A stretch of 49,032 bases of DNA from a bacterium (lineage in GTDB: Bacteria > Myxococcota_A > UBA9160 > SZUA-336), in NCBI GenBank assembly GCA_024226335.1, contig JAAELY010000234.1:1-49032 (forward strand), written 5' to 3'. The position numbers and the translations under genes were made by a program. Shown here piece after piece: positions 13,392 through 34,915 of this stretch. Numbering within the stretch: position 1 is the first letter of the stretch; every line of letters starts with the position of its first letter. The notes below the pieces were generated by a model, which worked only from the letters and a program-made list of their open reading frames with translations, was not told the origin of the DNA and ran no database searches.

Positions 13392-13443
13392 CGTCCCGCT
13401 CGAGGCCCCGATGGGACCCAGCGGACAACCTCAGGAGATCAGC

Positions 13444-14529
13444 ATGAAGGCCGCCGTCCTCCGCGGAATCAATCAGCCTGTTTCGATCGAAGACGTCAGT
13501 GTCAGCAAGCCCGGTCCCCGCGAAGTGCTCGTGCGCACGGCGGCCGCGGGTGTGTGTCACAGCGATCTGCATTTCCAGACGGGCGACTATATGTATCCCA
13601 TGCCCTGCGTGCTCGGGCACGAGTCCGCGGGTGTGGTCGAACAGGTCGGCTCGCAGGTCACCTACCTGGAGAAGGGCGATCACGTCATCTCCTGCCTGTC
13701 GGTCTTCTGCGGCTACTGCGAGTACTGCATGACCGGCCGCCCCGCACTGTGCACCAAGGAAGGTCTGCGTCGCGGTCCCGAAGAAGCTCCGCGCCTCAGT
13801 CAGAACGGTGAGCCGATCCACCAGTTCCTGGATCTCTCGTCGTACGCGGAGCAGTTGCTCGTGCACGAGAACGCTCTGGTCAAGGTGACCAAGGACATCC
13901 CGTTGGATCGCGCTGCGCTGATCGGGTGCGGCGTGACCACTGGCGTGGGCGCGGTCTTCAATACCGCGAAAGTCGAGCCCGGTTCGACGGTCGCAGTCGT
14001 CGGTTGCGGAGGCGTGGGTCTCAACGCCGTACAGGGTGCGGCGATCGCCGGCGCCGGACGCGTGATCGCGGTCGATATGTCGGATGCGAAACTCGAAACG
14101 GCCCGTCGGTTCGGCGCTACCGATGTGGTGAACGCAAGTGCTGGAGATCCCGTCGCACAGGTCCGGGAACTGACCGGCGGCGGTGTCGAGTATTCCTTTG
14201 AAGCAATTGGTCTCAAAGTGACGACCGAGCAGTGCTGGGAAATGCTGCGCCCAGGCGGAACGGCGACGATCATCGGCATGATTCCGATCGGGACGAAGAT
14301 CGAACTGCACGGTGTCGACTTCCTGGCCGAAAAGCGCATTCAGGGTTCGACCATGGGCTCGAATCGCTTCAGGGTCGACATGCCCAGGTACGTGGACATG
14401 TATCTGAATGGCAAGCTGAACCTGGACGATCTGGTTTCGCGTCGCTTGAAGCTCGATGAACTCCAGGCGGGCTTCGAAGCTCTCAAGTCAGGTGAAGTCG
14501 CCCGCAGTGTCATCGTGATGGATCAGTAG
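13444..14529 (+). CDS. Zinc-dependent alcohol dehydrogenase (MDR family)
   Basis: A 361-residue medium-chain dehydrogenase. Catalytic-zinc ligands are Cys38 (GVCHSD) and His59-Glu60 (GHE). The structural-zinc lobe Cys89/92/95/103 is complete (CGYCEYC, then ALC). The Rossmann motif is GCGGVGLNAVQGA, with an Asp after strand 2 (VIAVDMSD) indicating NAD(H) preference. It oxidises an alcohol or reduces an aldehyde in the cytosol; its long loop resembles class III-like or mycothiol/NDMA-linked members. The ATG at 13444 has AGGAG upstream. The selenoprotein gene follows after 50 bases, so the two may be functionally linked. Confidence 0.92.
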   Translation: MKAAVLRGINQPVSIEDVSVSKPGPREVLVRTAAAGVCHSDLHFQTGDYMYPMPCVLGHESAGVVEQVGSQVTYLEKGDHVISCLSVFCGYCEYCMTGRPALCTKEGLRRGPEEAPRLSQNGEPIHQFLDLSSYAEQLLVHENALVKVTKDIPLDRAALIGCGVTTGVGAVFNTAKVEPGSTVAVVGCGGVGLNAVQGAAIAGAGRVIAVDMSDAKLETARRFGATDVVNASAGDPVAQVRELTGGGVEYSFEAIGLKVTTEQCWEMLRPGGTATIIGMIPIGTKIELHGVDFLAEKRIQGSTMGSNRFRVDMPRYVDMYLNGKLNLDDLVSRRLKLDELQAGFEALKSGEVARSVIVMDQ

Positions 14530-14579: not shown

Positions 14580-15098
14580 ATGAGTCAGGTCTTTCTCGAT
14601 CCCAGTAGTGAACGGAAACCGACGCGCCGGCCCAGGGCGCCGCGTCTCTCCAAGCTCGCGGGTGCCACGGTCGGTTTGCTCGATATCTCCAAACCGCGCG
14701 GCGATGTGTTTCTTGGCCGGATCGAAGCGCGTCTTAAAGATTCGGGCGCGGAGGTGCTTCGTTTCTCCAAACCCACCTTCACAAAGCCCGCACCCGTCGA
14801 TCTGCGCCACGAAATCGCCACGCGTTGTACTGCGGTGATCGAAGCGCTCGCGGATTGAGGCAGTTGTACGTCGTGCAGTGTGCACGACACGGTGGATCTG
14901 GAGGCGCGAGGCCTGCCGGGCGTGTTCATTGCGACCGAGCAGTTTGTCGAAGGCGCAGATGTGCAATCGAATTCGCTCGGCGCGGAAACCGCCGGCATCT
15001 ACGTGGAGCATCCGATCCAGGACCGCACCGATGACGAGATGATCGCCATCGCCGATCGGGTGTTCGGCGAAATTGTGGCTGCGCTCGTCGCCGGTTGA
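14580..15098 (+). CDS. UGSC family selenoprotein (Sec at UGA 14856-14858)
   Basis: The two in-frame pieces 14580-14855 and 14859-15098 form one 172-residue protein if the TGA at codon 93 is read as selenocysteine. The junction reads EALAD-U-GSCTSCSVHD, the hallmark of the UGSC family found in marine and deltaproteobacterial selenoproteomes. The downstream half lacks a start with a ribosome site, and both halves match the family in order (SKLAGATVGLLDISKPRGD before, HDTVDLEARGLPGVFIATEQF after). A perfect 8-bp hairpin sits at SECIS distance. GGGAGGAAG precedes the ATG. Sec93, Cys96 and Cys99 could form a redox or metal site; the reaction is unknown. SelA/B/C/D must be encoded elsewhere. Confidence 0.88.
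14870..14888 (+). promoter_or_regulatory. Bacterial SECIS element
   Basis: The 8-bp perfect stem GTCGTGCA/TGCACGAC encloses a GTG loop (or 7 bp with a five-base loop). The apical loop begins 20 bases after the UGA, and its first base is G. Both fit the known bacterial SECIS model, where SelB binds a short hairpin just downstream of the Sec codon. Confidence 0.82.
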
Positions 15099-32662: not shown

Positions 32663-33439
32663 ATGCGCGACAGGACTCCGGTGCTCGATGGTGCCGTCAA
32701 CCTGCGAGACTTTGGTGGCTATGCCACCACGGATGGAAGGCGAGTCAAGCGCCGCAAACTCTATCGCTCCGGTACGCTTGCTCATCTGTCCGACGAGGGA
32801 CGAGAAGCTTTTGAAGCTCTGGAAGTGGGATTGATCTGTGATCTGAGACGATCCGAAGAAAGGATCGAAGAACCCACACCGTTTCCACCAGACGCACCCC
32901 GTCGAGCCGAGATTTCCATCGATCCCGGCAGTGCGGTCGGTCTGCGCGAGAGCCTGGCCGACGGCGTTCTGGATCTGGGCTTCGAGGAGCGAATCGGATT
33001 CATGGTCGGGATCAACCGCGAGTTGGCACGAGATCACATCGATGACTACGCGCGCATGTTCGAATACCTGGTGGAGATGCAGGAGGGAGCTTTTCTCGTG
33101 CACTGCTCGGCGGGAAAGGATCGCACCGGTTTCGCCTGCGCCCTGGTGCTCCACGCGCTCGGTGTACCGGAAGAGACCGTTTTCGAGGACTATCTTCTCA
33201 CCAACGAAGTCATGGACTACGAGGGTTTCATCCTGCCCCGTGTACTGGCTCGCTACGATCAGAAGGAAGTTCCGGAACGCGAGTCGATCATGGCTCTGGC
33301 CGGGGTACGACCCGAGTATCTGAAGGCCGCCTACGATGCAATCGAGGCGGAGTTCAACGACGTCGAGCACTACATCGAACAGGCGCTGGGCCTGGATGCC
33401 GCCACCCGCGAACGACTGCGTGCGCGTCTACTCGAGTAG
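32663..33439 (+). CDS. Tyrosine/lipid phosphatase, MptpB-like
   Basis: A 258-residue protein-tyrosine-phosphatase-fold enzyme. The catalytic loop is HCSAGKDRTG (Cx5R). The N-terminal VNLRDFGGYATTDGRRVK followed by LYRSG is typical of the bacterial Y_phosphatase2/MptpB group, which can act on phosphotyrosine, phosphoserine and phosphoinositides; the extra Lys in AGKDR favours that. I start at ATG 32663; upstream in-frame residues to 32561 look non-coding. Its 3' end overlaps the convergent transporter by 12 bases. Confidence 0.88.
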   Translation: MRDRTPVLDGAVNLRDFGGYATTDGRRVKRRKLYRSGTLAHLSDEGREAFEALEVGLICDLRRSEERIEEPTPFPPDAPRRAEISIDPGSAVGLRESLADGVLDLGFEERIGFMVGINRELARDHIDDYARMFEYLVEMQEGAFLVHCSAGKDRTGFACALVLHALGVPEETVFEDYLLTNEVMDYEGFILPRVLARYDQKEVPERESIMALAGVRPEYLKAAYDAIEAEFNDVEHYIEQALGLDAATRERLRARLLE

Positions 33440-34915
33440 AAGCTCGCTCGGTAGCGGTTCGCTCACGGACGGAGATGGACTGCGAGCCGAACGCAAGCCG
33501 TCGAGTTGGGTTCGGATCTCGGCATGGCGTTTGCGATCGAGGCTGTAGAACGCGAAGAGTGCGATCGGGATCATGTGTAGCGTGCCCAGGACCGGTCCCA
33601 TGAAGACGCCCATGCGGAAGACGACCTCGGGTGCGACGCCGACTGCATCCACGTTTGCCGGGAACTCGATGAACGAGAGCACCAGGCCGCCCAGCATCGT
33701 TCCCAGTCCCGAGACGGCCTTGCCCGAGAACGCCAGTGCTGAAAAGAAGATGCCTTCTTGACGCTCTCCGGTGCGGATCTCCTCCTCATCGACGACGTCC
33801 GTGATCATCGAGCGCGCGATTACACCCACGATCGCGCCTGCGCCTGTCCCCAGGCCGTAACTGGTCACGATCATGGGAAGCAGCCAGGGATTTCCGTTGT
33901 CCGGCAACACGTCGAGGAGTCGCAGGCTGATCATGGTGATCGAGTCGAAGGCCGCGAAGGTTGCCAGTGTGATCAGGACGTGCTTTTTCTCGAAACGACC
34001 GGCGATTCCCTGGACGATCGCAAACGCCAGAAGGTTGACTGTGAATCCGGCGAAGATGAAGTACTTGATCTGGGCCGGCAGCAGGCCCCAGAAGTAGGTC
34101 TGCATGTGCAGGGCAAGCGTGCCTCCGATCCCTCCGAGCGCTCCTCCGATCACCGTGCCGATGAACATCAAGCGGAAGTTGCGATTGTGCAGCGCCTGGG
34201 TGAGTTCCCGAAACACGCGCGCGAAGCTGAAGCCTTCCTTCACGTCTGGCGGTTCGGGCAGTCGGCGTGCTGCACGCTGGGTCAGCGCGGTCGACAGAAA
34301 GATCCCGACGAAGATGTAGACCACGCCGACTGCGGCCAGATGCGGATAGGCGTCCGGATTGAGCAGTCCGTTCTCGAAGGCTTCGCTCTTCTGGAAGATG
34401 GCCGTGTACGCGATCAGGGCGAAGCTTCCGCCGCCGAGCCAGCCAAACAGGTGGGCGTAACCCCAGATGCGACTGCGCTCGCTGTAATCCGGCGAGAGTT
34501 CGGCTCCGAACGCGTTATGCGGGATCTGGAAGAAGGTCATGAATGAGCGAGCCAGGATCGCAAAGAACGTGAGCCATCCGAAAAGCTCGTACTCGGAAAG
34601 TCCGTCGATGGGTGTCCAGAGGTAGTAGAAGGAGATGCACAGGGGCACTCCCGACATCCACATGAAAGGATGGCGGCGCCCGTTTCTCGAGCGCCAGTTA
34701 TCGGAGAGCGAACCGATCATCGGATCATTGATCGCATCGAAGACGATCGCGATGCCCAGCGCCAGTCCCGTCAACCAACCGTCGAGTCCGAGTACCTGCG
34801 TGTAGTAGAACAGCAGGAAGACGTGCATCGAATAGCCCTTGGTCGCAGTTGCGAACTCACCGATGCCGAAGCCGATCTTGGTGGATACCGATACGTGGGC
34901 GGAGGGCTGACTCAT
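33428..34915 (-). CDS. MFS transporter, GPH family, second copy
   Basis: A 495-residue transporter of the same family as the one at 23934 but clearly diverged from it. It has FDAINDPMIGSLSDNWRSRNGRRHPFMW after helix 2, IPHNAFGAELSPDYSERSRIWGY, and SMITDVVDEEEIRTGERQEGIFFSALAFSGKAV in the second half. ATG 34915 has GGAGG upstream. It stands alone on its strand. The substrate is not predictable; sugars, uronides or organic anions are typical. Confidence 0.87.
   Translation of the reverse strand: MSQPSAHVSVSTKIGFGIGEFATATKGYSMHVFLLFYYTQVLGLDGWLTGLALGIAIVFDAINDPMIGSLSDNWRSRNGRRHPFMWMSGVPLCISFYYLWTPIDGLSEYELFGWLTFFAILARSFMTFFQIPHNAFGAELSPDYSERSRIWGYAHLFGWLGGGSFALIAYTAIFQKSEAFENGLLNPDAYPHLAAVGVVYIFVGIFLSTALTQRAARRLPEPPDVKEGFSFARVFRELTQALHNRNFRLMFIGTVIGGALGGIGGTLALHMQTYFWGLLPAQIKYFIFAGFTVNLLAFAIVQGIAGRFEKKHVLITLATFAAFDSITMISLRLLDVLPDNGNPWLLPMIVTSYGLGTGAGAIVGVIARSMITDVVDEEEIRTGERQEGIFFSALAFSGKAVSGLGTMLGGLVLSFIEFPANVDAVGVAPEVVFRMGVFMGPVLGTLHMIPIALFAFYSLDRKRHAEIRTQLDGLRSARSPSPSVSEPLPSELLLE

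Follow-up and report, generated by a model that had tools for sequence, protein, structure and literature searches.

Among the known systems nearest to this locus are the B selenoproteins of glycine, sarcosine, betaine and D-proline reductases (GrdB/PrdB; PF07355, TIGR01918 and TIGR04483). In glycine reductase, electrons travel from thioredoxin reductase via thioredoxin and GrdA to GrdB (PMC3091704), with NADPH as the electron source, while the substrate is activated by a second subunit (PMC3091704; PMC13188914). For FarB/FarE of Cloacibacillus porcorum, a GrdB-like fluoroacetate reductase, cleavage of a carbon-halogen (C-F) bond has been proposed (PMC10838667), which suggests that such selenoprotein pairs can act on substrates other than amino acids. 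The UGSC family (PF24696/NF041046) has also been described, so that the gene considered here is a further member of it. A thioredoxin-like fold was suggested earlier for this family (PMC2398784), and the literature we found assigns no biochemical function to UGSC or to the partner protein described below.

The window (the whole stretch of DNA analysed, 49,032 nucleotides) belongs to a genome assembly of 556 contigs with 3.7% contamination. The features discussed are collected in the table.

Features of the UGSC locus and selenocysteine genes elsewhere in the same genome
Feature	Position	Strand	Basis or remark
Zinc-type alcohol dehydrogenase, 50 nt upstream of UGSC	13411-14529	+	Family matches; outside any conserved unit
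Shine-Dalgarno-like site GGGAGGAAG, 5' of the start codon	14566-14574	+	Sequence
UGSC-family selenoprotein gene (predicted)	14580-15098	+	172 aa, Sec at residue 93; stop TGA 15096-15098
In-frame UGA, predicted selenocysteine U93 of the UGSC motif	14856-14858	+	Sequence; TGA in homologues
Motif GSCTSCSVHD, directly after Sec	14859-14888	+	Alignment of relatives; superfamily conservation
Predicted bacterial SECIS hairpin, 8-bp stem 14870-14877/14881-14888, loop GUG 14878-14880	14870-14888	+	Sequence, folding, covariation
SelA	contig C355		514 bits
SelB	contig C333		Above cut-off
tRNA-Sec (selC)	contig C499		72.7 bits, anticodon tca
SelD	contig C545		Own in-frame UGA at GGUARKL

As judged from comparison with its relatives, the gene encodes a UGSC-family selenoprotein. 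When the UGA is read as Sec, the frame opened by the ATG continues through the junction ADUGSCTSCSVHD, and the resulting protein matches PF24696 with 145.6 bits (cut-off 25; 2e-42; residues 6-170) and NF041046 with 148.2 bits (cut-off 125). The homology thus spans both halves of the protein and is not confined to one of them. With a whole-length match, the UGSC motif and Sec at the U position, the window protein is an ordinary member of the family, apart from being one of the few copies with no partner gene next to it. The U93-G94-S95-C96 residues correspond to a U/C-G-S-C motif that is invariant in the alignment of relatives, and both C96 (of UxxC) and C99 are invariant in the close relatives. 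The codon at the Sec position is TGA in all 112 readable homologues, which come from independent assemblies and conserve both halves of the protein. In a wider set of 160 distinct copies, Cys is found at this position in only two full-length sequences (L134 and L135). It is also found in six of seven copies on plasmids (L221 and L223-L227, from haloarchaea and actinobacteria), while the seventh, from Acidovorax, has TGA. Exchange of Sec for Cys among homologues is a classic sign of a selenoprotein.

The hairpin following the UGA has a perfect stem that starts at the 12th base after it and a UGA-to-loop distance of 19 nt. The fold of the 50-nt segment (-16.4 kcal/mol, z = -0.84) makes the hairpin alone moderately unusual at most, and about 1% of synonymous recodings produce the same stem. 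Considering that folding energy alone is weak evidence, we used covariation in 34 diverse homologues, where 87% of the stem cells are paired. The pair 18-30 alternates between G-C and A-U and the pair 21-27 between C-G and G-C, while U-A, A-U, C-G and G-U are all seen at the pair 19-29. The covariation score is 0.324, compared with 0.116 +/- 0.020 in shuffles (none of 500 as high), and it is far lower in every slid register. Moreover, the seventh codon after the UGA is AGT in 95 of the 98 close homologues (Gly GGT in the other three), even though no Ser codon is rarer than AGT in the rest of these genes. The published model of bacterial SECIS elements describes a loop of 3-9 nt, a stem of 4-16 bp, a G in the first two loop positions, a UGA-to-loop distance of 16-37 nt and an MFE <= -7.5 (PMC13188914), and the window hairpin lies within all of these ranges (loop 3 nt, stem 8 bp, spacing 19 nt, -16.4 kcal/mol). 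Covariation and model together argue that the hairpin is a real bacterial SECIS element. The earlier note had read this region as a UGSC-family protein preceded by a strong ribosome site and joined from two in-frame segments (D-U-GSCTSCSVHD) by a TGA, with a perfect 8-bp hairpin, its loop starting with G, 12 bases downstream serving as the SECIS; all of these points hold in the present analysis, as does its claim that the genome encodes the Sec machinery, since SelA, SelB, tRNA-Sec and SelD were all found. Three observations were named in that note as able to overturn it (homology to one half only, a genome lacking Sec machinery, and a base other than TGA at the codon); each was checked, and each came out in its favour.

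The distribution of UGSC among 98 relatives is consistent with this. selA is present in 66 of the 67 genomes with UGSC, and UGSC is absent from 10 of the 11 genomes that lack selA (Fisher p 3e-5, uncorrected for shared ancestry); the exception, G044, is an assembly that is 85% complete. In six loci (L072, L093, L099, L111, L113 and L128) a gene judged by eye to be selB-like lies directly 5' of the partner-UGSC pair.

The conserved neighbour of UGSC in these relatives is a previously overlooked, unannotated protein linked to thioredoxin. Clustering of the neighbours of 153 UGSC copies, with the longest ORFs taken as the neighbours, placed it next to 117 of them, usually just upstream. This count was too low because in GC-rich DNA such a criterion favours spurious antisense ORFs, and the neighbours were therefore recounted with a profile of the core domain. 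With this profile, a core of about 340 residues with the same orientation as UGSC was found adjoining it in 151 of 161 loci (upstream in 127 and downstream in 24); contig edges account for six of the ten loci without it. In 89 loci the partner carries a fused N-terminal thioredoxin domain with a CxxC, which is confirmed by sequence matches in the PDB at 2e-4. Beyond the thioredoxin domain (a weak match to a thioredoxin family), no Pfam, NCBIfam or PDB family was found for the partner, whose RefSeq label is 'hypothetical protein'. The top Foldseek match of the core, class I fumarase (E 3e-4, TM 0.22), was too poor to use. In the core, two Cys residues are conserved across the partner superfamily, that of VMAGC in 93% and a second one in 87%. 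In L092 numbering, the conserved residues of the partner include C207, C305, N228/H230 and T235/T236.

All 67 genomes with UGSC contain the partner, and 28 of the 31 genomes without UGSC lack it, the other three having short fragments or copies at contig edges (p 2e-21 over the 98 relatives). Copy numbers of the two families track each other (8/8, 5/5), reaching eight pairs in one genome, and their pairwise distances are correlated with r = 0.95 over 144 pairs, while the shuffled maximum is 0.24. The partner is thus most likely obligate for UGSC and co-evolving with it, as far as genome comparison can tell. In Arthrobacter sp. ERGS1:01 the gene order is trxB, trxA, partner, UGSC, with an unfused partner, which is an unfused version of the thioredoxin-partner-UGSC arrangement. 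Two haloarchaeal loci (L224 and L226) have Cys-UGSC genes with partner-core proteins on both flanks.

In the window genome, the partner is found as an intact protein of 480 residues, with thioredoxin domain and core, on another contig (G000:C29:3646-5070; L195:1483-2925), with no UGSC next to it. Since the two genes are on different contigs, their co-transcription is not seen in this genome; since the assembly is fragmented, a fault in it might conceivably account for the separation.

AF2 predicts for the window protein (pLDDT 90.5) an open alpha/beta fold built on five main strands, in which Sec93 is located between a strand (85-91) and a helix (94-109). In view of the alternating strands and helices of this model, we rejected the thioredoxin fold for UGSC. 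Foldseek searches against the PDB and viral models gave no specific structural relative, the best matches being weak and including flavodoxin-like and TIR proteins, and no solved relative was found in the PDB by sequence. The kinship to GrdB/PrdB comes from sequence profiles. The C-terminal half of a GrdB from a relative (L172: STUGTCTRCGATMAKELERAGIP) reaches 31.8 bits with PF24696, for which the gathering score is 25, and also matches the GrdB families strongly. Profile-profile alignment (hhalign) of UGSC with 21 GrdB/PrdB-like sequences gave a probability of about 93% (93.5%), with Sec over Sec, Cys over Cys, and the C-terminal HP over HP. These alignments indicate that UGSC shares distant ancestry with the Sec domain of GrdB/PrdB, a distance at which kinship is not proof of function. 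The window protein itself matches UGSC families only, with no match above cut-off to TIGR01918/PF07355, and its gene is not among the TIGR01918 matches of its own genome.

UGSC and GrdB/PrdB therefore have in common the UxxC with Sec over Sec, a PHP-type motif close to the C-terminus, a homology to the C-terminal half of GrdB that is significant although distant, and the link to thioredoxin. On the other hand, UGSC is a short single domain that matches no GrdB family, many of its members lack the third Cys of UxxCxxC, and it is mostly found in non-clostridial lineages. Its partner is also not recognisably GrdE/PrdA: no relationship of the core to these pyruvoyl subunits was detectable in Pfam. 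A search for GrdE/PrdA in the genomes of the relatives gave no match, but it carries no weight, since the positive controls gave none either. FarB/FarE likewise combines a selenoprotein with a second subunit; however, FarE is a GrdE homologue from an anaerobic host (PMC10838667), whereas the UGSC partner belongs to a different family. Other GrdB/PrdB-like genes in which a TGA lies in frame were observed at four places in the window genome (G000:C387:5806-7143, G000:C386 at about 33225-34454, G000:C435:5850-6437 and G000:C29:16111-16533). They are below the TIGR01918 cut-off, and two of them read as VPVUPxC.

Taken as a whole, these observations are probably best explained, with some reserve, by the Sec93 protein and its thioredoxin-linked partner forming a selenol reductase of the GrdB-like kind. 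Comparative genomics indicates that SelB, carrying Sec-tRNA-Sec and bound to the hairpin, inserts Sec at the UGA. The product would act with an obligate second protein, the domain of about 340 residues that usually has an N-terminal thioredoxin and is here the one encoded on contig C29. The partner would bind and activate the substrate, the Sec93 selenolate would attack it, and the leaving group would depart. The resulting selenenyl-sulfide between Sec93 and Cys96 would then be re-reduced by the thioredoxin domain, to which thioredoxin reductase would supply electrons. Overall, a small organic compound would be cleaved reductively at a C-X bond, with X being N, S or halogen. By analogy, UGSC and its thioredoxin-fused partner would thus fit the plan of glycine reductase in miniature. 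We regard as evenly balanced the wider proposal that the pair represents a previously undescribed class of two-component, thioredoxin-fed reductases, made up of a short GrdB/PrdB relative and a non-GrdE activating subunit, diversified into multiple pairs within one genome, each specific for its substrate, in bacteria from which Stickland metabolism is not known, and with a Cys form in haloarchaea.

Three other explanations were weighed against this one. If the UGA were an ordinary stop codon or a sequencing error, the two halves would be a pseudogene or two separate ORFs, and the unexceptional folding energy of the hairpin (z = -0.84) would be in keeping with that. The TGA in 112 of 112 homologues, however, excludes a sequencing error or a pseudogene, and the conservation of both halves, the covarying stem and the complete Sec machinery in the genome also speak against two ORFs, which leaves this explanation with a negligible probability. 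It is very unlikely, though less extremely so, that in the window organism UGSC works by itself or together with the neighbouring alcohol dehydrogenase, the partner being incidental. The dehydrogenase does have the same orientation as UGSC and end 50 nt before its start, and the partner lies on a different contig; but the dehydrogenase is next to UGSC in none of the relatives examined, and an adjacency that is not conserved says nothing about the function of UGSC. We therefore rejected it as a functional neighbour. The partner, on the contrary, occurs in the window genome as well as in all UGSC genomes examined, and its family co-diverges with UGSC. This also bears on the suggestion in the earlier note of a redox or metal-binding enzyme beside an alcohol dehydrogenase: the dehydrogenase is not a usable clue, and we found no evidence for metal binding.

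A more serious competitor, although still rather unlikely, is a selenoprotein that works on oxidants, as a thioredoxin-dependent peroxidase or a disulfide or sulfoxide reductase, instead of a GrdB-like C-X reductase. A UxxC motif together with a thioredoxin-linked partner would suit such an enzyme, the majority of bacterial selenoproteins belong to the thiol oxidoreductases, and the fold guessed earlier for UGSC was thioredoxin-like (PMC2398784). In addition, a peroxidase or another thioredoxin-linked redox role would be expected to leave the same genomic pattern. The predicted open alpha/beta fold with its five main strands is, however, not that of thioredoxin, and UGSC is kin to GrdB/PrdB. 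The partner is also large and obligate, there are several specialised paralogous pairs per genome, and pairs occur near CoA-transferases, acyl-CoA dehydrogenases and transporters, features which suggest substrate-specific catabolism. The GrdB-like selenol reductase remains the preferred reading, and the co-evolving thioredoxin-linked partner and the kinship to GrdB/PrdB make the function of UGSC directly testable at the bench. The catabolic genes near UGSC vary among the loci and name no substrate. A phosphosulfolactate synthase-like gene is found near the Cys-UGSC pair in L223 and L227 (Arthrobacter and Natrinema), and DUF6282 recurs near Cys-UGSC in three haloarchaea; both are possible clues to the substrate.

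A second UGSC was observed in the window genome on a contig of 5993 bp (L133; G000:C393:1-5993) with a perfect terminal overlap of 49 bp, which is either circular or a tandem. The gene runs across the contig ends and has an apparently truncated N-terminus, with the UGA and SECIS retained, and the contig also carries ORFs resembling a DNA-cytosine methyltransferase and a Vsr-like protein. The Acidovorax copy (L222), with its in-frame TGA, is located near IS1071 on the conjugative IncP plasmid p2-T1 of Acidovorax sp. T1. Gaps in annotation affect both families: besides the RefSeq label of the partner, at least one plasmid UGSC gene ends at the UGA, the Acidovorax one being annotated as a hypothetical protein of 97 codons that stops there, with the downstream partner left unannotated.
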